A DNA stretch of 64,000 nt. It comes from Neckera pumila. Lineage: Eukaryota; Streptophyta; Bryopsida; Hypnales; Neckeraceae. The translations under genes were made by a program, and so were the position numbers. The stretch is from positions 3,353,001 through 3,417,000 of the forward strand of contig OZ018418.1 of the NCBI GenBank assembly GCA_963969595.1, in the 5' to 3' direction. Under the pieces are notes generated by a model. It had not been told where the DNA came from and did no database searches. It saw only the letters and a list, made by a program, of their open reading frames with translations. Each line of letters starts with the position of its first letter. Position 1 is the stretch's first letter. This document shows, one piece after another, positions 5,711 through 54,203 of this stretch.

Positions 5711-5739
5711 TTTTGAATAGCGATTGAATTTGAAGAAAA

Positions 5740-6200
5740 TTGGATTTGAAAGAGATTGGATTTTTTCTCCTACAATTGTCCTTTCACCTGTACTTGTGTA
5801 GTCCCATACATGCACTTGCCCCTTCACCCGCGGTTGCCCACAAGCATTCACCCCTTCATCCGCAGTCGCCTACAAACATTTTCTCCTTTACTCGTGATCG
5901 CTTACAAACATTTGTCCTTCACCCGCGGTCGCCACATGCACTCGCCCCTTCATCCACAGTCACCCTTTCACCCATCCATGGTCGCCTTTTCACCCGCGGT
6001 TGCCCCTTCATCCGCAGTCACCCTTTCACCCATCCATAGTCGCCTTTTCACCCGCGATCGCCCCTTCACCACTTGCGGTTGCCACCTTTGTACTCACCCT
6101 TCATCCGCGGTCGCCGTTTCATCCATCCGCATACGCCTCCACCTACAGTAGCCCTAGCTTGACCTACATGTGCCTCCACCCGCAGTCGCCCTGCTGACGT
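5740..6200 (-). repeat. CCCGCGGTCGCC array (subterminal, inverted)
   Basis: More than twenty copies of the (a/c)CCCGC(G/A)GTCGCC motif follow one another every 15-30 bp. This is the reverse complement of the motif at 1440-2690. The array abuts the hAT-type terminus ending at 6389 exactly as the array at 32640-33010 abuts the left end of the 20 kb element. Dense, regularly spaced subterminal motifs are typical transposase binding sites in hAT and CACTA elements. The proline/histidine/serine-rich open frames across it are repeat artefacts. Confidence 0.7.
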
Positions 6201-6389
6201 GGTTCTGGATTTCCACGTCAACTTTTAAAGCCTGCCACGTAGCCTAAATCGAGTTACCATGGGGTAAAATATTTTACCCTTATGCGACGGGATGTGACGC
6301 CTGTTTGACACTTTGTCTTATACAACACGCGACATCAGACATCCTATATGACACCAAACCTCATGAACATGTCAGACAAGACAACCCTG
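6201..6389 (-). mobile_element. Terminus of a second hAT-type element
   Basis: Read on the - strand from 6389, the sequence begins CAGGGTTGTCTTGTCTGACA and stays closely similar for about 190 bp to the left end of the giant element at 32446, including the tttggtgtcatatagga block, the paired aaaatatttta/aaaaaattta stretch and the ccacgtcag block next to the GGCGAC array. The 8 bp beyond the end (6390-6397, ctattata) would be the target duplication. The other end was not found and may lie outside the window or be deleted. Confidence 0.7.
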
Positions 6390-32137: not shown

Positions 32138-32445
32138 AATGAATGAACTCCGGTGGTAGAAGTTTCAAGCAGGTCTTTGGGATGAAAATGTGGACATCAA
32201 GAATTACCTTGTCACCATTTTCTTTGAATTACTATGGGAAATTCAGTTACATTTCCATATGAAATCAGCCATTTTTCCAATCAAATCTTTCTTTAGCCTT
32301 GCAGTTTAAGAGTAGTATACATTTTCTAGACTCCACAATGTACCTTGAGAAACGTGCACTTCTTCAAACACAACCACTCTATCAAAACATCAATTACATC
32401 CATGATGTTAGCAAAGGAATCTCCCTCATCTTTACTTATTACAAA
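32138..32445. other. Flank of the giant hAT element
   Basis: Short unique stretch between the piggyBac right end and the hAT left end. On the - strand 32326-32445 reads without stops and continues artificially into the hAT terminus. It might be an interrupted exon, but nothing is recognisable. The last 8 bp (attacaaa, 32438-32445) are the proposed target duplication. Confidence 0.4.
32438..32445 (+). repeat. 8 bp target duplication, left
   Basis: The octamer attacaaa lies directly before the CAGGG left end and is repeated exactly at 52635-52642 directly after the right end. Confidence 0.8.
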
Positions 32446-32639
32446 CAGGGTTGTCTTGTCTGACATGTTCCTGAGGTTTGGTGTCATATAGGACGTTTGA
32501 TGTTGCATGTTGTATAAAACAAAGTGTTGAACAGCCATTGCATCCCGCCGCGTAAAGGTAAAAAATTTACCCCGCAGTAATTCAATTTTGACTACGTGGC
32601 AGGCTGTAAAAATCGACATGGAAATCCAAATCCACGTCA

Positions 32640-33010
32640 GCGTTGGCGACTTCGGGTGGGGGCGCGTGCAGGTCTAACTAAGGCAACTTTGGGTCCAAAA
32701 ATTTAGGGCAACATTGTGTTTAGGCTGTTAGGCGACCTTGAGTTGAGATTTGTGGACGACCTCGGGTTCACAATGCTGGGCAACTTTGGGTTCAAAACGC
32801 TGGGCGACCTTGGGTTGACAATGCTGGGCGACTTTGGATTCAGGTGCAACCTTGGATTTAGATGTGACCTCGGGTTCTGTAAAAGGTCGACTTCAGGTGA
32901 TTGGCGACCTCATGTGAAAAGAGGGGCAATGTTGGATTATAAAGTGACTACGGTTGACATTTTTGTAGGCGACTGCGGATCCAAGAGTGACCGCAGTTGT
33001 ATCCACGAGG
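32640..33010 (+). repeat. Left subterminal GGCGAC(C/T)T(C/T)GGGT array
   Basis: About fifteen copies of GGCGACxTxGGGTT-type motifs spaced about 15-30 bp apart, all on the + strand. It begins immediately after the ccacgtcag block of the terminus. The same block and array order occurs, inverted, at 5740-6389. Confidence 0.75.
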
Positions 33011-33465
33011 GCAATTGAGGATACAATTCTGCAAAATACATTTTGTTTTTAGGAACTTCTATAGTTTACGTTTTCTATAGTATATCTTGGACATTTTTAA
33101 GTTAAAGCCCTCTCTCCAATTGAAAGACATAATCCAATATGAGTCCACAAGAATAATATCAATAATAATTTTTTATATATTAGCAGTAGCTCACATACAT
33201 TGGTGTGAAGGAGACTCCAACTAAAGTTGTATTGGCATTGAATTTCTATAATTAGGCTTTGATCATCATCAAACCGCCAGAGATAAAAACAACAAAAACA
33301 ATTCAAACCATATTATGTATTTCTCATTGTAATTGTCTAACATGCCTGTTGAGGCACTGGAAAAATACTCACAAATAAGCTATTAAGCAAGGAACTTTAG
33401 CTACAAATCTTCAAAATAGAACATTTAGGCTAAATCCTTATGACAATACTACATTGCATGCACAT

Positions 33466-36400
33466 CTAGTCCTCGGGTGTGAAAGTTGAATTGCTTGGCA
33501 CTTCATCAGCATCAGGGTCCGTATCTTCATGCAACTCTCTACTACTATTGTTGTTGCCGGAGCTCTTGTTCTCGTCATCTTCTCAGGGTACTAGTACGTT
33601 TTGTACTTCACTTTCTACCTCAGAGTTTAGATTTCGTACTTCAATATCCACGCCATCTGTGCCTTCTATTTGCACCAATCATTTCATGAGCCTGTTCACA
33701 TTGGTCAGTCCATTAATGTTAGGTGTGGGATGTCGTCCTTCTCTGCTTCATTGTCCAACATTTTGGGTGGAACATCCCGCACCCATGCTATACTGTTGGA
33801 CAACTTGGTTGGCATGTTCATGATTCTTGTGTATCTTCTCCTCAAATTTTCTAATATGCTTTTTGCCTCTACCTTTGTCAGTCCTGTACCTACGCACTTC
33901 CAATGACAAATCTCCAGGACCTGACATCGATGATGGTTGAGTGGGTTGTGGAGCTGAGCCACAGCCTTCTTCATCAATGCTTGCTAGTGCACCTCAATGC
34001 CCCCGCAGCCGTGATGGTGGGGTTGATGAACTTGGTGCAGACCTCCTGGCTGTAGGCAAGTTTGTGCCTCTTCCTTGATTCAAGACCACATTGCGGTTAA
34101 TGGGCAAAACACTTCCCAATGCCACATTGTCATTGAGCTTGTCAATTTCAGATGTTCAAGTGGCAGCTATGTTGAATACTGCAGGATTTGCAATTCTCTC
34201 ATGTTCGACCTCATCGACGATAGTTTGCTGTTCTTGACGCTCGCTTCTCACTATACCTTCTGCAGCGCTGTGGAGATTCATTGGCATTCTCAAAGGCGAC
34301 TGAGTTGGTACCGATAATCTCGTCTGTGGTTCTAAATTTGGCATTGGAATATGTACGTCACCGTTGTTGTCGTCAGGACTTCTTTCCCTCGATGGCGGGG
34401 TATTCTTTGTCATATCTTCATGCCATACACAGATGCGCACTTGTTCTAGAGAACGTAGGACCTCTTCCTCAGCAGCACCGTCCTCATTATTGCCATCCAC
34501 AAACATGTTTGGAAAAAATCAATGTTGTCTAGGTGGACTGTGCTGAAAGGGGATCATTGCAGCCCATTCATTATCGCGCAAGCGCTCCTCTTTGTCCCTA
34601 CAGTTCTTGTTTTCTTGCATGAAATCAGGAACCACCTCCTCTTTGTCTCTTGAAGGCAATCTCTCCTTGTGGTCTGAAGCGTCATCCGCATCTAAAAGGA
34701 GCTGCTCATAGAAAAGGGCTGGATTGTACCCACGTGTCTGACATTCAAATTTGTTGTTTGCGTAGATATACACCAATGTATTTGCCTTGGATGTCCTCAG
34801 GCAGTTCCGCACTTTGTTGTACACAAACAAATACATGCTCCAATTCCTTTCACATGAAGATGCAGAGCACATCAAACCTAGAATTTTCTTTGCTATCTTT
34901 GAAAAAGCATTGCCACCCACTGGATTCCACCACTGATGAGGCAACAAGTTACATTCATTGACATCGGGAGCCTCCAATAAGGGGTCGAAAGGCCCTGTCA
35001 TTTCTTCAAATTGCATCAGCTCATCCATTGCTTCTAATGCCGACACTCCTAAAGACTGACTCATTTTCCGTATGACTCAATTCAAGGCTCGCTTGGCTTG
35101 GCCATCGCCAAGAACTTCTTGGACATCTGCTAGAAATGGATTCAGGAGTGCCCCGCATAGTGCAAGTCTGTATGCATCAACTTCCAATGGGCGTCAAATT
35201 GCTTCTCATATTTGTCTGCCAACACTAGATCCAACCAAAATGACGCTTGCTTCAAATTATACATGTGGGTTTTTAATTTCTTCATTATTATCCAAGCTCG
35301 AGGCATGGCCGGAATTTTTCCATCAAAATGACAAAGAGCAAGGAGTACAAGCTCTACCATTTGCAAGAACTTCTTATATTTTATTCAAAACGCCTTCGAA
35401 TGAATGTTATGATGGATTTGTCTTGCTCGGACTTGAAGTATGCATCCATTTTTCCTCCTCACCAAATTGAACTCAAATTGCATGTCGTTGTCATCATTAT
35501 CACGAAGTGCAATGCTTGCTTGCAATCTACCAATTGGTCTATCATTGGGAAGTTGGTGGCGAAGCGTGTTTCAGAAGGAAGTCGCAAGACTTTGTTGGGT
35601 GACCACTTCCGAAAAAGAACCAACGTGAGTTGATACTTCTTGATGTAATTCACAATATCCCTACACTCCTGTATCAAATCTTTCATTGATTGAGACTTTC
35701 TCCAATCTTTCAAAAGTAAGTCCAAAATGTGTGCAACACACCCCTGTCTATACAAGTGAGGGTATTTTTCTTCCAAGCTTGTCATAGCCCCAGTCATTAC
35801 TGCAGCATTGTCCGTACATAGTTGGACAATGTTCAAAGGGCCCAGCTCGTCTATGTAATTCCCCATCTTCTCCGTCGTATAAGCAATGTCCTTTTTATCT
35901 CCAGTGTTATCTAACAATCCCAAAAAGACATCCCCGGCAGGACAGACCAGCATCATGTTCAACAATGGACGGACATTGGTATCCAACCAACCATCCGAAC
36001 AAAAAGTCGCCATGTATTGATTGAGTTTGTAGTCCGCTCAGAGACCACCTTCTTAACGACTTCCATTTTGACATCTATCATCTTTGTTCGCACTATGTTG
36101 TACGAGGGCAAATGGTACACAAATCCAGTTGCAGCTATTTCCTTCACTGTGTTTACAAAGGCGGGATGTTGCACGACATTGAATGCAATGTTGGCCTCAT
36201 AAAAGAAGGAAGCCCATGTCTTATCCAACTTCTGCCTCAGGCCCACTTGTAACGCCTCATCCATATTTCTTTGACGGGAAACGGTTGGCCGATTAATCCT
36301 TCTCTGGACCATTGCAGATGTGGAATCAACTGAATCAGAGGTAGGGGCTAGTGTTTCATTTGTACCACTAGGATTTGCAGAGCCTTCTCCCTCAATGTTT

Positions 36401-36650
36401 GGTGAGGTGGAACAACAGACTCATCAGCGTTGCCGATAACCGGATCTTCATACATCTCTTCATAGCTCATGGATTTAGGGACAACCCCCTGAGAATCCCT
36501 AAACTTGTTAGGTACAATCCTAGGCATTTTCTTACAACGATCTGACGTGTTTGAGCCACCAAATCCAAAATGACTAAATGCCCTCTTCTATATAAATGTT
36601 TTGTTCCACCCTCAGAATATGCATTTTTGAGGATAGGCAGAAGCATCATT
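33466..36650 (-). pseudogene. hAT transposase (BED, DUF659, hAT dimerisation), decayed
   Basis: Order on the - strand: a BED zinc-finger remnant at about 36540-36640 (SEGGTKHLYRRGHL, with the expected C-terminal CKKMPRIVP segment in a second frame); a DUF659/RNase H-like core at 35459-36013 (SDGWLD, ...CPAGDVFL..., TDNAAVM, and a GCVAHILDLLLKD motif); and the hAT C-terminal dimerisation domain at 34519-35064 (WWNPVGG, LGLMCSASSCERNWS, LVYIYANNK). An acidic, Ser/Asn-rich tail continues through 33705-34506 to the TAG at 33466-33468. At least two in-frame stops (TGA) interrupt the tail, and frames change between 36013 and 36460 and around the BED region, so it cannot be expressed as one protein. 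Length, about 1000 codons, fits the family with a long tail. It defines the superfamily of the 20 kb element. Confidence 0.85.
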
Positions 36651-36959
36651 CTCAGTGCATGGTACTAGCCAAGGGTCCCACTCTTTTGTGTCTCTATGTG
36701 TATCATTTGCACTATTTCCCCTACCATCGCCTTATCCAGCCATCTTGTTTATCTGCAATACGTTCAACACAAAATTGTTTAATCAATGAACCTTATAATG
36801 TATAAGAAGTAATGACAAAGTCCCTTGCTAAGAGTGTTCTTCCGAACCCGTCAAAGCAAGGTTATTGCCCTCCAAAGAACCAAAACGTTTGCAAGAAGCC
36901 TCTTTCAAAGATTCAAGTCAAAAGTCTAATTTTCAAAGCAAGGTGACAAGGAAAGATTG

Positions 36960-37270
36960 CCCCCCCGGATTTATAGTGACGGACTTCCAGGACCCAAGGT
37001 CGCCCCATCAACAAGTGCGGCTTTATAGTGACGAACTTCTAGGACCCAAGGTTGCCCCATTAAGGAGTGCGGGTTCAGTAGGGGCGACTTTGGTAAAGGG
37101 CAACCTCGGGTACCTTGAAGCAGCGACCTCGTTCACTTGCAAATAAAGGGCGGCCGCGGGTATACTGACGCGACCTCGGTTCCTGTCACAATCAAGAGCG
37201 ATTGCGGCTATATGGGCAACCGCGGGTCTTATAGCAACCTCGGATAAAAGAGAGACCGCGGGTGTTGGCG
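36960..37270. repeat. Internal GGCGAC-type array
   Basis: CpG-rich cluster of the same motif family as the terminal arrays. The first part (to about 37060) has the motif on the - strand (gacccaaggtcgcc); the rest has it on the + strand (ggcgacttt, ggcaacctcggg, accgcgggt). It lies just upstream of the transposase start, so it could be a promoter-proximal or former subterminal array. Confidence 0.6.
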
Positions 37271-37426
37271 AAAATCGATTGATGAAGTATATCAACACTT
37301 CATTAGCTCTATGAAATCTCAAGTATGATTCAAATTCCATTTGTTGGAAAAAAAAAAGGTCTGGTTCAAAATAGGGCTATATAATGATTTCGGCGGAAAT
37401 TGTGAGATAGTAGAAGACTCTAGATT

Positions 37427-39113
37427 TTGAACCTCTAAAACACCAATGCCTTTTTTTTTTGCATATAATCAGTTAAGACTGCAACTTCTATAGCATAGAT
37501 TAAATAATGTGGAAAGGGTGTTTTATGCTCATATAACCATAGAATCATATACCTAACAGGTAGGACAATGTGTGCAACAAAATTCAAAAATTTAGACAAC
37601 AGAGATTACAATAAATTTGCGTTTCCACTTTAAATTGAAAAAAAATTATTCCAAAGCACATTGCAAAAGAACATCAATAGATTTTGAGCCTTCATAAATT
37701 TTTTTTGAGCACTTATAAATTTTGAGCTTTAAATCTTTGTGGCGGAGGATTGGATTTAGAGTCTATGATCCAAGAAAAATAAAGAAAATTGATTTGTCAT
37801 ACGCCACAAAAATATTATCATTTAATTGCACAGGGCCTGTTTTGAGCCTCTTGGAATTTATTCCAAACCCTAAACCAAAAGCCAACATTTTGATAAGTTG
37901 AATCAGTTCTTTTATATTATAACCATACAAATTTGAACTACGCATGTAACTGATGTAAAAGATTGCAGAAGAAAATAAATAAAAAATCGTTTAATGATTC
38001 AAAGATTATAATCTTTGATCATCTGGTTGTTAGAACTATGCAAATCTTTGTTGACCAACTGTAAAGGCTTGGCGGTTTAGGTACTGGGTCTTTTCCAATG
38101 CAATGGTTCACTCTGTATGTTCCAAAAAATTTATAAATAAAAACTATGCAAATCTCTGACTTCTCTTTTTGCATATGGAATCTAAAAAATTGAAGACAAA
38201 AAAAATATGCGATTGACAAGCGTAACAAGTACAACCCTATTTAATTTTTGACTTCTCAAAAATGTATTATATACTTTTTGAAGATGAATTTCTAGTGTGA
38301 TTTTTCTTCTAAGATTTTGGGTTTCTTTAAGGCTCATTTGCAGAAGCCCTTAATAATACAAAAAGTCAATATTGCAATGGGTACCTTGGCACCAAATCTT
38401 GAAAAGAGAAATCGAAATCATTCATTTCCAATATAAAATTGTTTAAGCTACAACTAAACTTAATAAATAATTTTTCAGAATTATAAACTACTAAAAATTG
38501 CAATTTCATTAGGCTCTTTTTAACTTCTATCTTTATTCAACACCACATTAGGATGCTTGCGGCATTCAGAGATGTAATAGAATTACGTTCAAGATAGAAG
38601 GAAAATCTATGGTACTAGTAATTCTAAGATGGAATTAAATTGCACTAATCTGAATGGTGTGATGTGTCTAGCAAGAAAAATAAACCACATGAAAATTTGT
38701 TGAAGAATTACTTCAAAAACCGCAATCATTAATGAATTATATATGTTAATTTTTCAAGAACATGCTCTAATTGATTGACAAGCAAGATTGTCTATAACTT
38801 CCTGAAAACAAATCCAAACAAAATGAATCAAAATGAAGCTTTCAATGTAAAAAAACATATAATGTATGAGGAAAATATATATTGAAAGAAAAAATTATTT
38901 GAACATATATCCATACTTTGTTTGCCTCTTCTCTCCTATTTTGAGCGTTTTTGGGCATGTGTTTTGTTCATTTGCACCAATTGCACCCCAAAATAAATCA
39001 ATTTTACTTTCTTCAAGAAGAGTTCCAATAAATCATGGCAAACATGGAGACAACACGTACATGCATGATATCACACTTCTCACCCAAAAAGACTATATGC
39101 CTTAAGGGATTAA
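37427..39113 (-). mobile_element. TTAA piggyBac-type MITE, copy 5, with an internal insertion
   Basis: Reversed relative to copy 1. The right boundary is TTAA at 39110-39113 after gccttaaggga. The left boundary is a mutated TTGA near 37427 followed by acctctaaaacaccaatgcc. The part 37440-37740 matches copy 1 around 650-920 in reverse (cacattg, taaagtg, aattttt, agcataga), and 38690-38860 matches copy 1 around 290-500 in reverse. About 750 bp between the two halves (about 37760-38520) has no counterpart and is probably inserted DNA. Confidence 0.55.
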
Positions 39114-39783
39114 ATATTTGATAAATGATAATAAATGTGTTGTTCAAAATTATAGTAAATATAAAATTGACTTCTATAAATTGATACTGGGCTGTATTTT
39201 ATGTAATTTTGATTTTTTATTTACATCCAAGTTTGGTGTTGTAGCCGGCATACAATGCTTGTGTCATTTTAAACATATCCATTTCTTCTACACCTTCTAT
39301 TAAAACATTGTCGAGCTTTCATTTTCTTCTTTTAAATTGCAAAATTCATTATCATCAATTTCAAAATTGTTTCATCACAAAATTGCCTTCAAAGAAAAAT
39401 GAAAATAAAAAAAATTCTTTGATTTCTTGTGTTCTCATTTTCTTTTATTTTGTGTTTTGTCAATTTCTGCTTAATACTTATAGACCCTTGTTCAAGCTTC
39501 TCATTTTTGTATATATCATTACACATTTATATATGCCTACAAAAATGTAAAGAAGTTGACAATCATAGACATTCATGTCTATACATTAATTGGAAATTAT
39601 ACAAATCATAGAATTCAGGCTCATATACATTTAGGCTCGACAATGAAGTACATTGGATTTACCATATTTGCTAAGAATTTTCAAAATGGATAGTACACTT
39701 TATTATATTTACATGCACAGGGTAGTGTATAGTCCTACAACAACCCCAACAACAAAATTGTGTCATATAACATCCACCTTGCC

Positions 39784-40110
39784 CTAATAATTCCTCTTCT
39801 TCTTCTCCATCTCGACAAGCACCGCTATTTCTTCCATCTTAATGTTGTTATTTGAGCGCTCCCAATCTGAAAAAGTAGGATCAAATTCCCAAACTTTCCA
39901 AAACAAATTCTGTCAATCAAAATCAACATGGCAGTGGATAATGGCCTCTTCCAATTTCCTTTCGTAGCTCTTAAAATAAGCTACCCTCTTTTGGAGCTCC
40001 ACTAATTCATTAGAGCGCATCTCATTTTCCCCAGCACAATCCTCCAAACCAGACACATCCATGACATAGTCAAGGGGTTTTTTGTTGTTGATTCCTTCAA
40101 GAAAATTTAA
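39784..40110 (-). pseudogene. Unrecognised coding remnant, charged and probably coiled-coil
   Basis: On the - strand a frame of about 109 codons ends in TAG at 39784-39786 and has one internal TGA near 39915. It encodes LDYVMDVSGLEDCAGENEMR, then a Leu/Glu/Lys-rich stretch (ELVELQKRVAYFKSYERKLE), an aromatic segment with W-x-F-DPTFSDWERS, and a final MEEIAVLVEMEKKKRNY. Amino-acid composition and codon use look coding rather than random for this AT-rich DNA. It is divergent to the kinase fragment directly to the right. I do not recognise the family. Its heptad-like region recalls the coiled-coil gene at 43680-44992, but I cannot align them. Confidence 0.4.
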
Positions 40111-40140
40111 CCTTGATTGTGTTTACTCCAACATTGCTTT

Positions 40141-40783
40141 TCAATGTCCTTCAAAGTGAAGCGGCTGAGGAATCATCCGGAGGAGAAAAAAAAAGTTAGC
40201 TTGTTTCGAAGATACAAGGTAAAGATGGCGTGGGCTTTAGTGTATGTGACACATCTTATACACAAGTCTCTGGTGTTACACAATGACTTGTCCCCATGGA
40301 ATGTAATGTTGCATTTCTTGATTATTCAAATGACATAATTCACATCAAGATTTGTGATTGGGGAATTTCAAGTTGTTTTGACAAAAAGCCCCATCACATT
40401 ATGGCTACCCCGATGTGGATGATTGGAAACGACAAGAGCGACAATGTTGGTGGGTGGCTTTGGAGTTGTTCTATATATATGGGCCTCAAAATTCCGATAT
40501 GAGCATAGAGATTATGCAATCAATACAAAAATATGCGCAGCACTGGTACTCGTATTATATTGAGAAATTGACGGAATGGATGAGGATTGGAGATATGACT
40601 GACTTTGACCCAGATTTATTCAAAAATGCCAACGGATCTAGGTTCTTTGCTTATAAGTTGGATCAACTTGTGAACCTTGATCCAAAGAAGAGACAAACAT
40701 GCATTGAGGTGACGAACTCGCTCATGGCTGCACCATGGTGCATGAAGCCCACCGAAGCAGTTTTCCGCGACTCGCCTCTATAG
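40141..40783 (+). pseudogene. Protein kinase-like fragment
   Basis: Three frames joined in sequence encode the C-terminal two-thirds of a protein kinase domain: the catalytic-loop motif VLHNDLSPWNVML (HRDLxxxN replaced by HNDLSPWN), a metal-binding ICDWGIS (DFG replaced by DWG), a weak activation segment, then WWVALELFYIYG, which corresponds to the APE/F-helix region, and a terminal helical region with LVNLDPKKRQTCIEV, the usual conserved Arg region. The invariant Lys lobe is missing. Frameshifts lie near 40320 and 40430; the end is TAG at 40781-40783. The catalytic Asp of HND and the Asn are retained. It lies inside the 20 kb hAT element, so it is likely element cargo or a captured host gene. 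Confidence 0.65.
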
Positions 40784-41739
40784 AAGGAGTGTACAAGTTC
40801 TTATGGTGAGGGTAGCACATGGAAGGAATGAAAATGTTGGCCTTGTTGTTTGCCTCTATTTTTGTAATATGGTATATGAATCTAGAAAAATACTTCTTAT
40901 CATGTGCAATGTCATAAATAAATCTAGTATTGTGTATGCAGTCTGCCCAATTTCATAGACTGAAGCTTGAAGCTTGATTTTGTTTTGGAAACTATCTACT
41001 ATATTAGATTGCAATGTGATTGGAATTGTTCACTTGCAAACTATTGAGTGTACCCAATTCAGAAATCCATATATCAGTCAATGGATGTTGTTGTAAGATT
41101 TGTTTTCCGCATCACTTATTTTATGTGATTATTTCAAAAGAAAACATTAATCCCTTCAAGTTTATGAGTGCCATTTTGAAAGAACGATTGAAGCAAAAGA
41201 CATCTAAAATTCAAAGAATCGTTATTTCCATTTCATCAAGATTTGTGATTAGAAATCAAGACCCTAAAAAATTAGTTATTTTTCATCCCTTAAATACTTG
41301 TTATGTAGAATTATAGAAGTTAATTTAGAATTGAAGGAAATTCTAAACCGTAAATAGCTTTTAGAGGGAATTGGTACAGTAGTAGCTGGTATCCACAGTG
41401 AAATTGTTGTTCTAAGAGATCACAACCTTGTGAAACCTATAAAAAAAAGATGTTTGAATCATGAGCCCTCAAGGCCGAAACGCCAATGCTACTTGTACCA
41501 CGAGTGCTTATAATTTTAAATGACTTGTACCATCACCGTTTCTTAGAATTATTCATTGGAAAGTTCCCAATTTGTCAATATGACAATTACATCTAGTGAC
41601 CAAGGAAATAGTAGATAATTGATATTGGTATAATGGGATAGGCTAGGTTGAGCTCCAAAAAAAGTTTTTGGAGTGAATTACTTACTGTCAATTTAAAGGG
41701 TAAAGAAAATACTAAATATTGTGGGCAAGCCATATTGAT
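40784..41739. other. Non-coding stretch within the hAT element
   Basis: No gene recognised. The open frame at 41020-41316 (98 residues) has no identifiable domain and lies in AT-rich sequence; it is not called. Confidence 0.4.
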
Positions 41740-42180
41740 TTCGGCTGTCAAAGTTGAAATAGAGTAAATATCCTATATGAAACTCTGAACTGTTTTTTTT
41801 CTTTAAAGTTTTTTTCTTATAGATTTTTTTTTGGCTCTCTAAAAAGCTTTGATTCATTTCATTTGGATATTTTATGAGACACTTATGGACAATCTTGTTT
41901 TTGGTCACTTAGAGCATCTTCCTAAAGAAAAAAACTTGCAGAGTTGAAAAATTCTTTTACATATTTGTACACATACAGATGATTGAAGGACTAGACTTTC
42001 CTAATAGATTTAAAACAAGTACAAACAACAAATATCATACATGTATAACATGCTTTAAAAAAGGTGCCCAAATCTTTTTTGATATTTTTGATAAATTTAT
42101 CAAATGTATTTTTGAATTATTTTTTAATACAATTTAATTTTTCCAGACACTTGTAATCCCTAAAAGCCCTAGGAATTAGG
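41740..42180 (+). mobile_element. Partial TTAA-type MITE, copy 6
   Basis: The stretch from about 41800 to 41950 matches copy 1 at about 260-420: ttcttatagattttt, aaaaagctttgattcatttcatttgga, and tatggacaatcttgttttt followed by cacttagagcatctt. The ends are not recognisable, so it is a fragment. Confidence 0.5.
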
Positions 42181-42689
42181 ATAGAAATACAAATGTATTA
42201 GAAAATATAAGTTCTCAAACTTAATTTGAAGTTTTCATCAAAGAAGAGAGTACAAAGTACAAAAAGTAGAAAGCATCCGTATGGTAAAGTTATTAAATTA
42301 TTTTTAGCTTCTTTTAAAAATTCCTTTTGAAAAAAAATTAATCCCAAATATTAACCCCAAAAATTAACCCCAAATACATTTTCTATCTTCTGCATACGCT
42401 TTTTTCTGGTATTGGTCAAAATTGTGGTTTCTATTGATTTGTAAAAAAATGCATAAGATCTAATAATGAAAATACCAACCCTATTCTGTAATAGTAAGTT
42501 TTTCAACAATAGTCAAATCTTAACACTTTGTGCTATTTCTCTTATAATTTAGGTTTGACTGTAGTGATTTGAGTTTTGCCTACAAATATTGATCAAAATC
42601 CAACCCCTTTGAAAAAACAAAATAAAAAATTCAGAACATGCCTCCTTCTCCCCAAGAAATCTGTCCAATTGGAAAACTTCCAACCAATT

Positions 42690-43170
42690 TTTTTTTTATT
42701 AGCAATCTGGTGCAAAATATGATTTAATTTTATGGCCTGGCACCACGCCTATAGGAAAAAATGGTACTAAAAAGGTGCAAAATTGCTAGAAAGCTTCAAA
42801 TAAATTCAAAATCTTGGATGAAATCGCCAAAGTGGAAAAAAAAATTGAACTAGGATATATGTGATATGCAAGGCTTTTTGTTTTGGACTTTCTAGTGCTT
42901 TATTGCACTAGAAAAAATAATCTGGCACTAAAATGGTAAAAAAATTGGCAAAAAAATTGGTTGAAATCATCCTAAAAAATTCAAAGTACAAAAAAATACT
43001 AGATGAAATCGCCAAATTTTGAGTGGAAACCCAGTTATAGACATATGATATGTATATTTTCTATCTGGTATAGATGAATGTTGAAATTTGGAGCACCATT
43101 GTAACATTCAATATTGCCACTTTGGCACTTCATTAAAAATGGGAAAAAAAACCAAGCTTCCTACATATAG
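42690..43170. repeat. Short duplicated AT-rich block, ~180 bp period
   Basis: The phrase gatgaaatcgccaaa occurs near 42818 and 43000, each preceded by aaattcaaa(a/g) and followed by a run of A and a gaaat-type segment. The last 60 bp (actttggcacttcattaaaaatggg) resemble the outer end of the long terminal repeats at 58811 and 62600. This may be a decayed member of that element family. Confidence 0.35.
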
Positions 43171-43189
43171 TTGCCATGGACCCATACCC

Positions 43190-43360
43190 GCATTCGTCTA
43201 GTACACGCAATCGGGATGAAAAGTCCCGTATCCGCGTTTTTCAACAGTTCGCAGTCAAGATGAGAAGTCCCATACTTGCGTTTGCCAAGAACTCAAGGTT
43301 GCTTCCATGGCCTCACTTGCACCCACTACAAACCCGTACTCGCCTCCTTGTGACTTCGAG
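43190..43360 (-). repeat. Internal GC-richer island with CGC-type motifs
   Basis: Motifs such as cccgcattcgtc, cccgtatccgcg, cttgcgtttgcc and acccgtactcgcc are spaced through about 170 bp. They are weak, reversed versions of the GGCGAC motif. The island precedes the coiled-coil gene on the + strand and may be its old promoter region or another internal array. Confidence 0.4.
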
Positions 43361-43679
43361 TATTAAAGCAATCACTTAAATCTGCATTCTCCACTTCTGG
43401 CTCTGCATATTGACTGTCATCTACCTAGAAGTGGCTGACTGCATACACATGGGCTAGGGGCTTGAATTGTGAGGGGGATATGTTGTCCCTTTCCTCCTCG
43501 TTTCCGGAACTTATTTTCATGCTTGAGATTGATTTCACATCTTTTTATGGTAAATGATTTTATTTTTGTAAATGTGAATTGCAATTGCTTTAGGGTTTTC
43601 TTGTTTGTGTAGAACGGATTCATTCTTAGATCATTAGACAAAATACCTAATGCAGCATTCTCGATACAAAGTGATCATT

Positions 43680-44992
43680 ATGGAAGACGAGACTCCACCA
43701 TTCCCGCCTACGTCACCCGAATCGCTAACTCGGCTCCAAAAGAAGGCGCTTTGTGATAAGGATCAAAAAAGAATTAGGAAAACCTATAAAAAGCATGAGG
43801 CTATCCTTTTGCATAAAAAAATTAAGGCTTTGGGGGGTTGGATCCTTGCCTTTCCAAAACAACAGTTTTGCTTTGTATCTTGTCCAAATGGTGTATGCCA
43901 AGCGTATATTGAAGAAGGAGGTGGATTGGACGACTTTAAAGGAGCTCCCTAAAGGAAACTATCCTGCCAACGCAACAATCCTGATCGAAGCTGCTATACT
44001 TGATGCCAAGAAGAAGTTGGCATTAGTTAAGCCAGGGAAGTTATGCATTCTTAATGAAGAGGTAATGTGGTCGGATGGTTCTAGCTCCGGTAGCCACACC
44101 CATGAGTACGACGGGTATGATTGGCAAAGTGAGGACAAAAAATATGTTGTTACAAATTGGTATAAGAAGGGCTTGAAGTCGGAGGTTGACAAGAAAGGAA
44201 AGAAGAAAATTGAGGAGCTTAAGATTGTATCTGACATTCCCAAACAAGGTATAGAAGATGTGGAGGAAGTGGAAGTGGACAACGAGTTCCATGAGCGCAA
44301 TGGCAATAAGAGCAAGAATGATTCAGATGACGATGTGGAGATGTTGGGCGCTAAGATTGCAAGCGCAAGAATATATTTATGGGAAGCGACTACGGAATTG
44401 AAAGAATTGAAAGAACAAGAACTTTCAGATTTGGGCACCCGAGAGTATGTGTTATCATACAAGTGAGAATTAGAGATTGTGAATAAAGAGGTAGCTGCAA
44501 ACGACAAGTACTTGGTTGCTTTGAAGAAAAATAAAGATAATTATTTGAACAAGATAGCTGATGGCGCGCTCACATGATGGATGATGTCATAGTGTATAAA
44601 AAGAAACTCAAAATCTTGGAACGCGATCGTTTGAGGCTATAGTATGAAAGGCAAAGCCTGGATGTGCAAGTAGCTTGAAAAGAAAATGAGTTATACACAA
44701 CTGCTGTAGAACATTTGTTGCAGCTAGACAATTTGGCTATGGCTCCAGGGTATGGTAGTAGCCTTGAAGAATTAGCAAAGCTTTGGAAGTTGGTGAAGCT
44801 GCACAAGAAAAAAATTGAAGTGCGTCTAGAGGAGTATTATGAACTGAAAGTCAAACGTCATTTTAATAAGGATTGGATGGCGTGGAGCAGAGCTATTAGA
44901 GGTGCACTATCTGTAGAGCTAGAACAGATGGGGCCGGAGCCAAAAGAAAGCGACTATCTCAGCATTAGTGGAAGCATGAGGGATTATTGTTA
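43680..44992 (+). pseudogene. Coiled-coil protein gene, element cargo, function unknown
   Basis: Starts at MEDETPPFPPTSPES. The reading frame changes at about 43855, and the main frame continues to the TGA at 44464-44466, with the C-terminal part in a third frame to the TAA ending at 44993. Features: a basic N-terminal helix (RIRKTYKKHE), a short VYAKRILKKEVDWTTLKE motif, a region with an acidic Ser patch (NEEVMWSDGSSSGS), a Lys/Glu/Val-rich stretch with predicted coiled coil from residue ~140 on, and a C-terminal Lys/Leu-rich helix ending SISGSMRDYC. The YAK..KE.DW.T.KE motif is shared with the RING gene at 49323-51798. No enzymatic domain is visible. Confidence 0.6.
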
Positions 44993-45214
44993 ATAGCCCA
45001 GTGCAAATTTCCCGGTTCGCGCACCTTTTTTGATGTCCATTACTTTGAATATGAAATATAAAGTTTTCTCTTTCAAAAGTGTCCCTGAATTCCCATGTAT
45101 ATAATGACTTTGAAATTGGCTTATGTCCTTATAATCCCATAAGGATGTGAAAAAGCACCATGACATTTCAACACATTAGTACTTGAACACATTGTTAACC
45201 TCTGCAGTGTTCTA

Positions 45215-45375
45215 CACTAGTAGAAAATTCAGATTTTTTGTTGATTTGGTCGCGTTGATCGAGGTCACTTTTTTGTTGATTTGAACAAAAATCAACATAT
45301 TCTATTCAAATCAACAGAAAATTGACCTTGATCAACGCGACCAAATCAACAGAAAATCTAAACTTTCTACTAGTG
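45215..45375 (+). mobile_element. CACTA-type MITE, complete
   Basis: A 161 bp near-perfect palindromic element starting CACTAGTAGAAA and ending TTTCTACTAGTG. The arms pair along about 70 bp (ttgatttggtcgcgttgatc against gatcaacgcgaccaaatcaa) and leave a short centre. The 3 bp flanks are both cta (45212-45214 and 45376-45378), the duplication size expected for CACTA transposons. Confidence 0.85.
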
Positions 45376-46751
45376 CTATGACTATGTTTTCATCGGTGCA
45401 ATTTGTAACCTTCCATTTTTTTAAGAAATACTAATTTTTTTCTAAAAAATAGTTTTTCAACATATGTAACATTCGGATGTAGTAGTATGTTGTCTTGAAA
45501 GCATTTGTTACAAAATTTCAAAAGTTCCCATCGCAAGATTTGCAATATATAAGCATTCAAATGAAATAAAACTTTTTTGAGGGGCCCCCCAAAAGCTTGG
45601 CAATTGCACTACGGAAGCTTATTTTTCTATGGAAAAATGTGCATAATGGTAATGCTTCTTTGGATTGTTTTTCCTAGACATATGGGTGTCATGCTTGAGA
45701 TATTTCACATCAATTGGATTTTTACAAGATATAGGAAAGAAATAGTGAGTATAAAGAAAGAATGAACATGATTTGAAATATTGAATTGTTAAGAATTTAT
45801 ATATGAAATAAAAAAGACCAATCCTAGTAGTGGCAATGTTGTAATGAACAATCTACACCTAAGGTTTCTATTTTCTTCGAAAATATTGGAACTTGACTTA
45901 AATAAAGGACTTTAAAGTATATTTTTGAATACAAAAACAGTAATTGACGTTTATAGAGTTGAATGTCTCTAATGTTAGATTCATTGATTTCATGAAAATT
46001 GATTGACTCAAAGTCTTTGTGAATAAAACTCTAGAAAACGGTGTTGCTATTTCTTGTTTATGAAGAAAGTGAATTATTTAAATTTGCGCCAGCTGTCCAA
46101 GTTCAAAATCAAAGTAAAAAACTATATATTATTGGATATCTTGGATAATTTTATATTGAGAAGTTATAAAAATTGTTGGACCTTACAATGATTCCTTGTC
46201 TACATCTTCTATTAAAATTGGGGCCCAAATATAGAAATCTGTAGTGACATTCATCATGCCCAAAATGACTATGTAGTTAATACTCTAGAAATGCATGTTT
46301 GTTTTGTAGGAGTTAATGGATTAGTATCTTTAACTATTTTCTTCATGAGAATGTCAAATGTCATCTTCTTTTTAGTCAGAGAATATTTATTTTATAAAAA
46401 AAAAGATAGTAGTAGCCGGAAATAAGGGTAGGAATCTTTTATGCACAAATATTATAAGACTGCTTAAAGTTTATTGTATTTGAATTTTATGTTAAATTAA
46501 AAAAATCCCGTGGATTATTTTATTTTATTTTTCAACCTTTCCTTTGTTGAAACTAAGAGTATCCATTCTTTTGGTTTTCCTTATTAAAGAATGTTTTCTT
46601 TTATACAATAAAATAAGAACATTTGTTAATTTATACAAAAATGTTCTGGATATCTATTATAAGAGCTAAAATGAAGAGCACACATTCTCTTGCATTCTAC
46701 TATTAGATTTTTGTCAAAATCATGAATACCTTGTCTATTTTTTTTCCCTAA
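45376..46751. other. AT-rich non-coding stretch within the hAT element
   Basis: No gene, repeat or element end recognised beyond homopolymer runs. Confidence 0.4.
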
Positions 46752-47695
46752 ATAACCCCAAAAAAACCATTATCCATTTAGAGGACATTTAGAAATTCAG
46801 GCAAATACGTATAGGTTGGGTTCTTCTCATGATCACTTTTTGCAACTGTTTTTGAAGATAGGAGAACTGATAATCCCTTTGGGAATATCATTTTTTTATC
46901 ATCCTCTGCCATAAACAGAAATTGTGCCCCCAAAAGCTCAAAATAGGGGAGAAGGGGCAGCCAACAGAATTTTGCATTATTTTTTTATAATTTTTTTTGC
47001 AACATATATTATATTTCTTCTTAATTAAAAAGCTTTGATTCATTCTATTTGAATTTGTTCTAAGAAAGTTGTGGGCAATCTTATTTTTTGGGGACTTAGA
47101 GCATCTTTTTGAATAAAACAATGTGTAGGATTCATTTATAAATGTAATTTTTACAAAAATGAAAATAAAATAGGTCCACGTGGTATAGTTTTTGTGCTAG
47201 AATAATCTCACCATTGGAATTATTGAATTTTAATTCGATATCATGGACATCAAAAATCCATATTATCCTTCTATCTTGTACCTACTTGGCTACTTGTATT
47301 TAACAATTTTTTAATAATGAAAATAATTTTTATTTTATCTTCTTTTTCTTGGTAGACTCTCAACTCAATTCTCCCCTATAAAATAGAAAGATTTGTAGGT
47401 CAGAACTTTGTAGTGCATGAAATTAAAGTGCATAATGTTCAAATTCAGGAAACTTGGTTCCACAATATGCTAGAGAATCACCTCATATGTAGTTCAAACA
47501 GAAATATCTTGCAACCCATGCGATTGGAAATTCTTAAATATTTTCCACACATTGTCATATGACTTACGTGTAAGATCCTCCGCTTAGATATGAAAAGAAG
47601 AAAAAAATTCAAACTTTTTGGTAGTCCTTGCTATGGAATTGGCTGTTTTCAGTTTCTTTTGGTAGGAAAACAGCCTTATTTGTTTACGGGTTTAG
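46752..47695 (+). mobile_element. TTAA piggyBac-type MITE, copy 7
   Basis: Same direction as copy 1 and close to it internally (46800-47300): gaagataggagaactg, gggaatatca, aaaagctcaaa, then aaaaagctttgattcatt and cttagagcatctttttg. The left end reads aataaccccaaaa and the right end gtttacgggtttagg; the TTAA on both sides is degraded. It is nested in the 20 kb hAT element and contains no gene. Confidence 0.6.
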
Positions 47696-49322
47696 GATAA
47701 TGAAATTCATAAGCAAAAGATACTCATTTGCGTTTCTTATTATGTTTTTTATTTTCTTTCTAAAACCGTAAACCATTGTTTATTTTCTGATAGTTGAAGT
47801 AAAATTTACAATATGAGAAGGAAAACACCTGTTTTCTTTTGTTAATAGGTTTCGATATACATCTTTTTAAGAATGACAACCTTCTTTATATTTTTTCTTT
47901 ATTCCCAAAAGACTTTTTCTTTTAGTTTATTATGTTTTCAATATTTAAACAAAATAAGTACTTATTACTTTTTTAAATAATTGTAGACAATTCCCAACTT
48001 CCCGTACACATAAAAAGAAATGCACTCACTTAGTCACTTCCTTTCATTATTAATTTATTATGTTCCAGCTTTTTTTAAATAAAATGCTATTGTTAATTTG
48101 CTATTTATTTTTCTTGGAGTTTCTAATTCTTTTTTTTCAAACAATGAACACCCTTTCTAATTTTTAATACTATTTCCGAATTTTGTTGGAAGAAAGTGAA
48201 GGCCTTAACCCTCTTCCGTTTTTAGATTTGTGAATAAGTATTTCTTGTATAGTTGTATCAGAAGAGCACCCATTTTGTTTCACTATTATCAATATTATGC
48301 TTGATTGAATTTTTTTTTGGAAGGCAAATTGTCTTTATTGTTTTCTTTTATGAATGAATGTTATTTATTTTTACATAAAAAATAGTCATTTCCATTTAGT
48401 ACTATCCAAATCTTTTTTTTTGATAAGAATAAGAATCCTTCTGGATTTTTTATTGTGAAGGGTTATTTATTGAATAAGCAGAAGAGCACTGCTTTTCTTG
48501 CATTATTATGTTCTTCTACTTATTTTGGAAACATCATATTTCTGTTCATTGTCTTTCTTCATGAATGAATTATTTTAATAAGAAAGACTTCCATTTTCTA
48601 AAGTGATTCAATTTCCTGCAGATTTTTAATAAAATTGCAAGAGTCATTAATTTTAGAGAAAACAATTGAAACTTTCTTGGATCCCACCAAGAGGAGTGTA
48701 GCACCCATTTTATTGCATTATTATGTTCCTATATTTATTAATTTTTTTAAGGAATTCTAGAGACTTTGCTTCATGAAAAGAATAACACATATTTTATTCC
48801 ATTATTACGTTCCAATACATGTATTTTTGAAATAAAATCCTTTCATTTTTTGGACCATTTCCTCTTTCCTGTACACGAAATCAAGAATGGGAAGAACATG
48901 CATCGTTTACTTAGTTTGGCTTCACGTCTTGGAAGTTAATTTTTGTATATCTACATGGAATGATAAGAATAGAAAGGCCCTTCCTTTTGTTATTATTAGT
49001 CTATTATAGTTGATGATTTATGGAAAAAGAATAAAAACACCAATTTCTTTCTCGACGATATATATTAACGCAAAAATGCACAATCATGTGAAGCAATAAA
49101 GGTAGTATTTATTATATAAAATCAAAGCATTATAAAATTGCTTTGCATAAGTACAAAATTGTAATACAAAGCCATAGAAGTGGAATGAAAAAGGAATACT
49201 AAAGCACTACATACTACTCGACTAGGCGAGCATGGATATTATATGATCCTATATTATTGAGCCACTTCGGATTTCTGTTATAACGCAAAGCTGATCTGAA
49301 AGTGAACGATTCTTGCAAACAT
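47696..49322. other. AT-rich region with a degenerate repeat
   Basis: The phrase (g/c)cattattatgttcc recurs in diverged form around 48050, 48505, 48715 and 48800. No regular period is clear and no gene is seen. Confidence 0.35.
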
Positions 49323-51798
49323 TTAGTTGATAACAATTTTGTTGTTTACTGAACAGCTTCCTTCACCACGTTCATAATTGGATGACTCTCCAACCCCAAG
49401 CTTGCGCTTTGCATGAGTTCGTGATGCTGGTCCATCCACGTTCAAAATGGATTCCAAGACATTGGAGTCCTTCAGAGCTTGGAGGGTTCTCATTGTCTAT
49501 GGAGAGTGTGCTTCCAAAAGATAGTCAAGTGCTTGACTTTGGTAGTAAGGTCCATATGTAGAGTCCAGATAAGCCATACTAGTCAAATCTTTGATGGAGG
49601 TATTGTCATCTTGATTGACCACCCTCTTCCCGTCTAAATCCCATCGGTGACTTTGAGGATGAGGACCCCACTTGAAAGTTGCAAAGCCTTTATTAAAATA
49701 ACCTCTGAGGCATTGGAAGAAAAATGACCTCTTCCCTTCATGTTGTAGACCTTCTCCCATCAGCCTTGGTGCAACTGCCGCAACTTCTGCGGGATCTGTC
49801 TCCCAGTTCAATTGGAAGCTCAAATTTCTAGATTCTTAAACATGTAGCCCTTGTTGCCAACTCCAAAGCAAGTCTCGCCCCTAGAGTTTAGAATCTATCA
49901 TGTCGAGACTGTGCTCCCAGGAAGGTGGCATGTAAGTCATCAAGCTGAATAAAGCATACAACCAATCATGGAATGGTGCTGAACATATCACGCAACGTTG
50001 TCTAATCAAACATTGTGTGCTGAGACATTGCGGATGGTACATGTGTCTACAAGATCCAAGTGCCCACCCTCCTTTGGGACCAAATGGGTCTAGACATATG
50101 GGGCATTTGGTGTGGTCCAAGACAAAAGGTGCAATCTTTGGCCACTAGAGCTGTTGTTCCTTCTCTATCAAGTGGCTATACTTTTGATTCTCATGGTCCC
50201 AACCCATTTCTTTCCAATTTACTACAGTCTTTCCAGGCACTCTCCAACGTGGGCATGTCACTGGAAAACATATTATCGAGCAATGCCCAAGATGCAAGTC
50301 CATTCTCCCGTTTCGGAGCATTTGCAACAAAGTTTTTCAAAACTTTATCCAACTCTTGAGCAATTTCTTGTGATCTATCCACCAAAAGAATGCACGCGAC
50401 TTTCCAACTATAATATGTGGCCGCCAATTGTGCCAACTGTGTGGTGAGTGTATTGTTTTCCTCTTGAAGACCCAGTATTTTCACGGACAATACGGGATGT
50501 GGAATTGCAGGAAATGAAAGTGAATCTTGGGTCCCTTGGAGTTGATCACTCATCATAGCAATATTGTCTTCCATGATTGTAGCAAGAGGTGCATTTGGAA
50601 GAAGTGAAGAATGCTTGATACGCTTGGTAGGAGGTGAATGGTGAAGGACGTCACTTGTGAGGTCTCCTACAACCTTGTCCAATTGATGTGGATTGTGCTT
50701 GACAAAGGCATCGTCCATGTCCGACAAAGTCAACGTCTCACGCTCCTTGTCTTGTAGGCGTTGCAGTTCTTTGGACTGTTGAGAAATGACAGCATTTTCT
50801 TCATTGCAATTAGATCGCAGTTTTTGGATATTTGATTGCAGTGAAGCAATTGTTGTGTCTTTGGCCTTTAAGAGATCAAGGGCCTTACATAGAGCTATAG
50901 TGTTGTCAGCGACAACTGCTTGTGACTGAGGAATGGGAGTACGGACAACTGTTTGTATAGGCATGTTATCGTTCGGGCCGAAGTCAAAGACGTTGCTTGC
51001 ACCCGGTGGTGCCAACAATGGTTGTAAAACGGTCATTGAAGGTGATGCAAGTCCAATTTGGTTGGTGGAGTGCCGCACCTTTGAGGGATGTTTTATTCTT
51101 CGTCCCCATGATGATGAAGCAGCCTCGACATTTTGAACTTGAACCTTGGTGGACTCGACAGGTTGCTCCCTAACTCGTACTATTTTGGGGGCTTGCGTGC
51201 CATCGGAATCCTCATCTGGTTTTGATTCCTCAGTGTGAACTTTAAAAGTTTCAATGTTTTGACAATCACTACGAATATGGCCTAAACCTCCCTCTGGGAA
51301 TGTCAGGACCCCTTTTGGATGTGCTACATATAGACTTTCTTTCATTGTGCACCAATCAAATTCTTTATTCACGGCCACTTTAGCGTATTCTCCTCTGGCA
51401 ATGAATAGAGGGACCTCATTCCTCTCTTCAAAAGGGATTATGTAGAGGACCTGGTACAATTCCACGCATCTTTGAACAAAAGCTGGAGTTTCACAATACT
51501 TTAGATTCGCCTTATTGGTGTGCTTGTTGTAATGATGGCGCCATGCTGGAAAGAACTTTTGGATGTGGCACCATTCAATGTAATCTTTGCAGATTTGCAT
51601 TGTCCACGGCCCTTCTTCTTAGTTCCAACCTTTAAAAGCGAGGTGATTTGCACTATTCAGCATATGCCATCGCTTTCGGTGAATGGTGCCTCTGCGCTTC
51701 TGGCCCTTATCTTTGATAGCCTTTCTGACATTACTAGGAGTGTTGTATGTAGTGTGCAAAAGAGGAACTGACCTATCACTGTTTCCTACAGCAGCCAT
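49323..51798 (-). pseudogene. RING-finger protein gene with coiled coil, element cargo
   Basis: Likely start MAAVGNSDRSVPLL at 51798. A TAA interrupts at 51619; the frame continues from 51600 to 50191. It includes a helical N-terminal domain, the EYAKVAVNKEFDWCTMKE motif, an acidic/Ser linker and a Gln/Leu-rich coiled coil at about 50700-50860. A one-base frame change near 50220 leads to a frame that continues to the TAA at 49323. It encodes a RING-H2 finger with C-x2-C-x14-C-x-H-x2-H-x2-C-x10-C-x2-C (CPIC...CRHMYHPQC...CVIC, 49970-50110), then YMPPSWEHS and a WETDPAEVAAVAPRL domain. Stops at 50145, 49881, about 49840 and 49497 are TAG or TAA where Gln would fit. RING-H2 proteins are often E3 ligases; that role here is inference. 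It lies next to the right end of the hAT element. Confidence 0.65.
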
Positions 51799-51959
51799 TG
51801 GATTTGTTGGAGAAACAATATTCGCGGTAACAAGTGGCGTGAAAGAACTCAAGAAGTAGTGAATATTCAACTTGAAGGTAACGCATGCAGCCACGTAAGG
51901 ATGCAAGACCAGAAGCCTCAACATTGAAGAAGTTGACAAATGCCGCATGGGCGAGTGAA

Positions 51960-52634
51960 CTTATAAGCGGTGCAAGCTCTGGTTACAGAGGGCACGTGCA
52001 AATGAAGCAATCGCGCGTAAGGCGACCTCATGTCATTTAGGCGCGTGCAGGCCCTTCACAGGCGACTTCGAGTCTGAGAAGCGACTTCGGGTCTAGACGC
52101 GCAAACTCGAGTACAAAAAGGGCGACCTTGGTTACCGGATAGGCAACTGAGGGTCCAAACTTGGCGATCTTGTCTAACAGCAGGCAACCTTAGATCTAGG
52201 AATCACGACCTCGGGTCCTGGGAGGGCAAGTGTAGGTTGCAGTGGGCAACATCAGGTTATCCTTGCTTACCCGCAATCGCCAAAGGTTTGGTCGCCTCGA
52301 CACCCAATTGCCCACCTAGCCTCACCCGCCCGGTCGCCTCCATCGCAGTTGCCTACCCGTGTTTTTTGTATCCGCGGTTGCCCGATATCCGCAGTCTCCT
52401 ATCTGAGGTCGCCAAATCCACGTTTGCCCTAAACCCGCACTCGCCACATCTGTTTGTGCCCCAAAATGTGCCACGCGGATGCCACATGGCGTCCAGGTGG
52501 CGTAGGTCAAAGGGAGATAACTTTTAGGAAAGTCATAGGTAATTTTGACCTTATTGGACATTGCAAGGGGTCTACTGGACGTCATGTGACGTCTAATTGT
52601 TGCGCTCATGGCGATGTCCGGGAAGACAACCCTG
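51960..52634. repeat. Right subterminal arrays and right end of the hAT element
   Basis: From 51960 to about 52255 motifs run on the + strand (ggcgacctcatg, gcgacttcgggtct); from about 52262 to 52470 they run on the - strand (acccgcaatcgcc, cggttgcc, gaggtcgcc). The terminus from 52480 to 52634 has no array and ends in agacaaccctg. The last 20 bp pair with the left end at 32446. The motif reversal at about 52258 gives the array an inverted-repeat organisation. Confidence 0.7.
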
Positions 52635-52642
52635 ATTACAAA

Positions 52643-53149: not shown

Positions 53150-53700
53150 CTATCCTAATTTTCTTTCCGAACACGGCAACAGTTCGACATGCACGACATT
53201 TAAGACATCTAGTAGCCCCTCCTTTGTCAAGTAAAGTCTAATAAAGTCAACTTTAAGTTTGACTATCAAATAACTTTCATTCACCGTCCATATTAAAATG
53301 GCTCTCAATGTGAACATTTTCTCCCCCTCCGATTTTGACATATTTATTACTGGAACACCACTCCAAAGCTTCAATAGATCACAAATAAGAAGACGCAAAA
53401 TCACATCAACAACCTCTGCTGTAGTTGCTTTTGGACCGCAAATTAGCATAGCTTGGGACATGAAATTTTTTGAAGTCAGCAGCCACGGGGGAAGGTTATA
53501 AACTGTAATGAAGAAGACCCACATTGAGTGCTTGATGGCGTTATTCTTAAATGAAATAATGCCATCTCCAACTAGTCCAAGTCGAAGATTTGTCTTCACT
53601 TCCGCAAAGTTGGGATGGTTCCAATCTATATTCTTCCAATGCAAACTGTCTGAGATAGACCTAATATTATATTCATTAAAATGGAGGGTTTGTGGACTCT
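53150..53700 (-). pseudogene. CACTA transposase (tnp2) fragment
   Basis: The frame covers the central block of the plant tnp2 transposase family: WKNIDWNHPNFA, NLRLGLVGDGI (family form RNLRLGLASDGF), SMWVFFITVYNLPPWL, LICGPKAT, and LRLLICDLLKLWSGV, MFTLRAILIWTVN. Downstream the frame shifts: TKGG-type codons and a cluster of Cys codons (expected GWSTKGxxACP) appear in another frame near 53180-53230. The start and the rest of the transposase are absent, so this is a fragment of a CACTA element. Confidence 0.8.
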
Positions 53701-54203
53701 CAAACTAGTCTTAGGTATTTGAAGACACAACAAGTGACATGCATGGGCTCTAATTTAGCTCAAAAATCACTCAATTAATTACTCTAAATCATCAATTTCC
53801 ATTAAAATGAGAGCCATGCAAATAGTGAATGCCTTCCAACAAATGTTGTTATGTTTCATGTCAAACATTCCATGTGTTTCGGAGACATTGTACCCATTAA
53901 ATGCAATAACAAATACATGAATACAATATATGGATTGCACTTGTGATATAAATATAGCAAATGTATCACCAAAACATAAATTATCTACTATAAACCTATA
54001 TTTACGAATTCAATTCTTAAAAGTAAATTGTTACTTGTTTCAAAAATCAAAATCAAAATGTCCACATTCATGGAACACAAAATGATGTCTTTCACGTGTA
54101 TTCAAAAACATACTATAGACATATAAATGACAATTAATACACTACCCTAAACCTTATAGTAACAACACATTGAGTTTCTTCCCAACCACCATTGTGCTAA
54201 AGA
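53701..54203. other. Spacer, no gene recognised
   Basis: AT-rich sequence between the tnp2 fragment and the next gene; nothing definable. Confidence 0.4.

Follow-up and report, generated by a model that had tools for sequence, protein, structure and literature searches.

A large hAT-superfamily DNA transposon with a recurring RING gene in the moss Neckera pumila

Described hAT elements and the limits of element A

Cut-and-paste elements are commonly regarded as small and minimal, and those of the hAT superfamily carry short terminal inverted repeats of the CARNG kind; the VANDAL elements of Arabidopsis belong to the Mutator-like superfamily. In the accessible text of a survey (2018) of 276 plant hAT sequences, the longest consensus measures 7,144 bp and none is recorded in Physcomitrella (PMC6027215). 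Plant hATs (Repbase plant set) share short terminal inverted repeats, an 8-bp duplication and a hAT transposase with the element described here, but stay within that length compared with 20-30 kb and recurring accessory genes in the present family. Tol1 and Tol2 of medaka are likewise cut-and-paste members of the hAT superfamily; in the available part of their description they differ in being 4.4 and 4.7 kb long and in consisting of a transposase and terminal repeats (PMC10175614). ToxhAT/ToxTA of fungi (14 kb) is also a large DNA transposon with cargo and was formerly called a hAT, but the excerpt at hand reports a TA duplication and 74-bp ends, on which its authors place it in Tc1/mariner (PMC12506042). 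VANDAL, in the accessible portion of its description, likewise carries several genes and has tandem repeats in noncoding sequence, but its accessory protein is a different one (PMC10398659). Pack-TYPE hATs hold gene sequence between hAT ends, but the extract available defines them as non-autonomous (PMC8903248). No report of such size together with such genes was among the 8-20 best-ranked papers listed per search on large hATs and moss hATs, which is no proof of absence, with preprints and most subscription papers outside the collection searched. In our reading, the present family is a giant branch of the hAT superfamily that carries multiple genes. With high confidence, element A represents a single, decayed copy of a large DNA transposon of this superfamily whose ends, transposase and RING gene recur; we infer cut-and-paste movement by the transposase and, more weakly, accessory roles for the RING protein and two others.

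The window is a stretch of 64,000 nucleotides (C11:3353001-3417000), and the genome searched comprises 339.5 Mb in 18 contigs. Element A occupies window positions 32446-52634 (20,189 bp without the duplications). Its left end opens with CAGGGTTGTCTT (32446..32457, plus strand) and its right end closes with the exact reverse complement (52623..52634, minus strand), giving perfect 12-bp terminal inverted repeats of the short hAT type. The target-site duplication ATTACAAA at 32438..32445 has an exact copy at 52635..52642; by chance, two fixed positions would agree over 8 bp in 1 of 65,536 cases. Genome-wide, the 12-mer CAGGGTTGTCTT occurs 201 times (116+85), compared with 24 (15+9) for the reversed control. 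An earlier note on this DNA had pointed to the inverted ends, the matching octamers, arrays of the same motif within each end, a hAT transposase inside and an unusual length. These observations are confirmed: the ends and octamers are exact, GGCGAC-type motifs lie in both arrays above the level of shuffled sequence, transposase domains are matched in a gene that is broken, and ~20.2 kb stands against 7,144 bp for the longest plant consensus in the accessible part of the survey (PMC6027215).

Copies of the element and its subfamilies

Left ends homologous to that of A are present in four further loci (c57, c37, cC1, and c2). Copy c57 (C11:5765048-5785356; 20,309 bp) has the exact duplication GGTACATT and matches the window in the order right end, 52635 to 45378, 45212 to 43657, 40151 to 32446, left end, at 85.5-90% identity, with ~0.9 kb standing where the window has 40152-43657; it is colinear with A throughout, nested inserts and one 3.5-kb stretch excepted. 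The deleted copy c37 (8,436 bp) has both ends and the exact duplication CCTGGAAC; it retains 2.0 kb on the left and 2.3 kb on the right, has lost the middle (34553 to 50299) and has gained a 3.9-kb insert. Copy cC1 (C1:37270629-37293779; 23,151 bp) shows both ends, both halves and a long middle insert. Its flanking 8-mers are unequal (TTTGAGGC and CTCTTTGC), which counts against the reading of one mobile unit and might result from ectopic recombination. Both c57 and cC1 track A across both halves at 85-91% identity, cC2_32 tracks it from the right end (41958-52637), and in c34 (L034 and L047) 52188-48528 is joined to 41227-40152. With c2 (13,576 bp), a family member also drawn from the 12-mer list, A has only the ends in common, nested repeats aside. 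The end pair c1, taken from the 12-mer list, was rejected as an element. No intact copy was seen among the copies examined, and A itself is a decayed, dead copy.

The two ends of A could in principle stem from separate hAT insertions that landed by chance within 20 kb of each other. A further left-type end at window 6389 indicates that ends cluster here, and c1 elsewhere is such a chance pair. The exact duplication at A speaks against this reading, as do c57 and c37, in which left and right ends are paired in the same way between exact duplications; it is excluded because c57 is colinear from end to end and has its own duplication GGTACATT, and we give it practically no credence. The earlier note had read A as one hAT-type element and proposed a search for further copies with these ends. 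Such copies were found in c57 and c37, and that reading is supported. The recurring gene set of the interior and the broken state of this copy had escaped that note.

The RING gene described below distinguishes a second subfamily, in which it has ~68-69% DNA identity to that of the window. Right ends of this subfamily read CAGGGTTTTCTT (L012, L013, L016, L019, L026, and L033), and the single third-group member, L020, ends in CAGGGTTTTCTG. At L012 CTTCTGAG comes directly after the right end (C11:12068686). A genome search with CTTCTGAG+CAGGGTTTTCTT gave four matches at two or fewer mismatches and one for the reversed control. One of the four, at C11:12038416, is exact, in the correct orientation, and past the transposase match at 12045883; the element thus delimited runs from its left end at C11:12038424 to C11:12068686 (30,263 bp) between exact CTTCTGAG duplications. 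Another match, at C8:3808959, has TTTCTTAG and then the end sequence, and the right end of L019 at C8:3837481 is followed by TTTCTTAA, giving a C8 element of about 28.5 kb. The interior sequence of these 30.3-kb and 28.5-kb elements was read at the RING locus only. For L016, no left end was found at two or fewer mismatches near the expected position. The 8-bp duplication is exact, with four different 8-mers, in A, c57, c37, and the 30,263-bp element; it agrees at 7/8 positions in the C8 element and at 6/8 in c2, and is lacking in cC1.

End pairs only ~350-370 bp apart also occur, for example L008 (C1:18834421-18834782). The duplication is exact at L008 and 7/8 at L004, and we regard these two pairs as miniature relatives of the element.

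Genes between the ends and the source of the length

The broken hAT transposase gene (34159..36420, minus strand) is read in four pieces: a first piece at 36420-35962, one with DUF659 at 36037-35462, one with the hAT dimerisation domain at 35076-34522, and a last piece at 34518-34159. The gene has frame breaks, and a single in-frame stop parts the last two pieces. Pfam matches are DUF659 (PF04937, 1.2e-25) and Dimer_Tnp_hAT (PF05699, 2.4e-06), and a PDB search with a relative, P0010, gave a match to Hermes (E 0.0033); the dimerisation domain and RNase-H-like core of hAT transposases are both represented. The motifs DGW, TDN, CxxH, and CERNW are readable in A, and we take them to be the catalytic motifs. 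The pieces in cC1 and c57 show 74-84% protein identity (two short overlapping matches aside). Among 96 relatives, those named by organism come from land plants and the alga Chara braunii, apart from a single fungal match (E 9.6e-5) and a metagenome bin named Bacilli bacterium, which we have taken for misplaced plant DNA. The Physcomitrium patens relative has 44% identity across 21% of the query.

A broken RING gene (49356..51792, minus strand) lies near the right end, with an N-domain and coiled-coil part at 51618-50194, the RING finger at 50144-49884, and a C-terminal part at 49835-49500. Other copies show the two ends, the transposase, and the RING gene together again, and in the order found in A. 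When all 63 RING fragments were paired with the best 70 of 151 transposase matches, at least 23 of the 49 RING loci had a transposase on the same strand and 3' within 40 kb, and 26 had no transposase among those 70 matches within that distance. The other arrangements are nearly empty (same strand 5', 0; opposite strand 3', 0; opposite strand 5', 1), and random placement gives a mean of 0.93 pairs and a maximum of 5 in 2000 runs. At C10:17123370-17140611 a RING relative (42%) and a transposase relative (41%) also share a strand, with 14.7 kb between them; this pair is the most diverged, and the RING-transposase association may be old.

Between the first two subfamilies the median dN/dS of the RING gene is 0.26 (187 non-independent pairs, 17 and 11 loci, with groups assigned from RING DNA identity and without L020 and the duplicate L011), and inside them it is 0.55 and 0.57, values in which decay inflates dN. 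The first of these values shows the signature of purifying selection between the subfamilies. In 30 RING loci (L009-L038) 188 stops were counted, 137 of them at positions where P0001, the RING protein, has W, Q, or R; the count takes in both L010 and L011, which have identical stops. The stops are mostly unlike between copies, with the commonest positions recurring five times. Stops that are copy-specific and mostly at W/Q/R sites fit genes that were intact at insertion and then underwent largely C-to-T decay. The predicted structure of P0001 (9-row alignment, mean pLDDT 47) reaches fair confidence only for the N-domain, for a single coiled coil, and in some of the C-terminus, and a fold search with it against the PDB gave three matches, the best at E 6.7.

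Typical hATs measure a few kb, a size that does not define the superfamily, compared with 20.2, 20.3, and 30.3 kb here. We considered that an ordinary 5-kb hAT (32.4-37.4 kb) was enlarged by later unrelated transposons, its length being an accident of this copy. Nested inserts are real in A, c57, c37, and cC1. A ~165-bp hairpin insert at 45213..45377 is missing from c57 and cC2_32; a 0.94-kb TTAA-flanked insert is present in c57 and cC1 (site at window 37472) and absent from A; a 0.89-kb stretch of A and c57 is missing from cC1; and cC1 has an insert of ~5 kb that, judged by eye, resembles a Copia retrotransposon. The interior of A also contains AT-rich interspersed repeats. The RING gene and its inner flank nevertheless recur at about 86-93% identity across many copies, and the stretch with another gene, ORF43, at 86-88% in cC2_32 and c57; the RING gene starts ~0.6-0.9 kb inside the right end at the loci of three subfamilies that show both, and it was under selection. 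Enlargement by accident is improbable on these grounds. Without the recognised inserts, A and c57 are estimated at roughly 17.5-20 kb, still far more than the longest surveyed plant consensus (7,144 bp); nested transposons contribute length, not most of it. The 0.94-kb insert has CCCTAAGGG-like ends beside TTAA and is piggyBac-like by its look.

Further genes lie in the interior of this long element. ORF43 (43638..44993, plus strand) is a broken N-domain gene without a Pfam match over the cut-off. Its single relative in the protein collection, P0106, also without a Pfam match, has an N-domain in common with the RING protein (50% across 123 residues). An ORF-Z remnant (39916..40122, minus strand) was matched to c57 by reading translations; cC1 and c57 hold a larger part including the N-domain, which is common to the RING protein and these two further genes. 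A remnant of a protein-kinase-like gene (40152..40783, plus strand) lacks the segment before 40152 that is present in c34, where the Pkinase match (2.9e-4) is under the curated cut-off; the piece had no match to PDB sequences at E 0.01. We judge it unlikely that ORF43, the kinase-like gene, and the RING gene were captured from the host and ride along as Pack-type passengers. Plant hATs and other elements are reported to capture genes in the available extract of PMC8903248, and the kinase-like gene, found in A and c34 and not seen in c57 or cC1, is distributed as might be expected for a passenger. That extract, however, defines Pack-TYPE elements as non-autonomous, whereas transposase pieces lie within A, c57, and cC1 and the RING gene accompanies the transposase; the RING gene was constrained, three genes have one N-domain in common, and, as weak evidence, none of the nine RING relatives bears a host-gene name, most being unnamed.

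Motif arrays and possible roles of the accessory proteins

The left subterminal region (32446..32990, plus strand) holds a motif array with matches at ~32646-32969, the right subterminal array (51972..52440) has the motif in both orientations, and an internal GGCRACY array (36990..37264) lies directly upstream of the transposase gene. Counted on both strands, GGCRACY occurs 8 times in the first kb of A, 10 times in the last kb, and 5 times in 36900-37400 (maxima of 3, 4, and 2, respectively, in 1000 single-base shuffles per stretch), compared with 3 times in the remaining 17.7 kb. It is enriched at all 14 right ends tested (first subfamily, 7; second, 6; third, 1), with 6-13 per 700 bp compared with maxima of 2-4 in 200 single-base shuffles. 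This conservation suggests a putative binding site, most simply of the transposase.

By analogy with known hAT biology, the transposase would excise and reinsert the element at its CAGGG ends, and it would probably recognise the GGCGAC arrays inside them; as a guess, either the transposase or the N-domain proteins could bind the arrays. The RING protein and the two N-domain proteins may be accessory proteins of the element. Their targets might be its arrays or proteins of the host, with counter-silencing or help in transposition as examples of a function, and the RING protein might take part in marking proteins of the host or the element with ubiquitin. Selection kept the RING gene during the active period of the family, and the copies died later, probably for the most part via C-to-T decay. 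Tentatively, and with slightly less than even confidence, we propose that this 20-30 kb hAT branch has a core of a RING E3-type protein and two N-domain proteins, which travel with the transposase across subfamilies and would form a dedicated accessory system working through the GGCGAC arrays at the ends and the transposase promoter, either as a transposition aid or in ubiquitin-based counter-silencing.

A related reading, which we consider rather doubtful, is that the arrays and N-domain proteins would form an anti-silencing system working like VANC of Arabidopsis VANDAL. The multi-gene make-up, the presence of arrays upstream of the transposase as well as at each end, and several related proteins without transposase domains are in its favour, and the targets of VANC are tandem repeats in noncoding parts in the accessible portion of PMC10398659. 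VANC target repeats are described as diverging rapidly, however, whereas three subfamilies retain the GGCGAC core at their right ends, a pattern that agrees at least equally well with binding sites for the transposase. A hAT lineage that keeps a RING gene across subfamily divergence indicates that modules of several genes, 20-30 kb in size, can arise and persist in this superfamily. It offers a system to ask how a hAT transposase copes with such length and whether transposons turn ubiquitin ligases on the host, and the gene set is a handle for detecting such elements in other plants.

Some further observations concern contig C11 and the surroundings of element A. C11 (12.3 Mb) is 3.6% of the genome and contains 23 of the 49 RING loci, an excess that a non-recombining or sex chromosome would explain. 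Two of these loci, C11:11709045 (minus strand) and 11816517 (plus strand), have equal scores and identical stops and lie ~107 kb apart in opposite orientation; the transposase matches are mirrored too, and the pair is probably an inverted duplication. Within the window, the left-type hAT end at 6389 (82% over 250 bp), for which no partner end was found, belongs to a region (1473-6389) with AT-rich ~105-bp units between two motif arrays. Inverted copies at 16.5-19.65 kb and 22.4-25.8 kb are ~80% similar, and their two scanned open frames had no Pfam match. Adjoining element A, window 53153-55338 holds a piece of a CACTA-type transposase (PF02992) and a DUF7869 piece.
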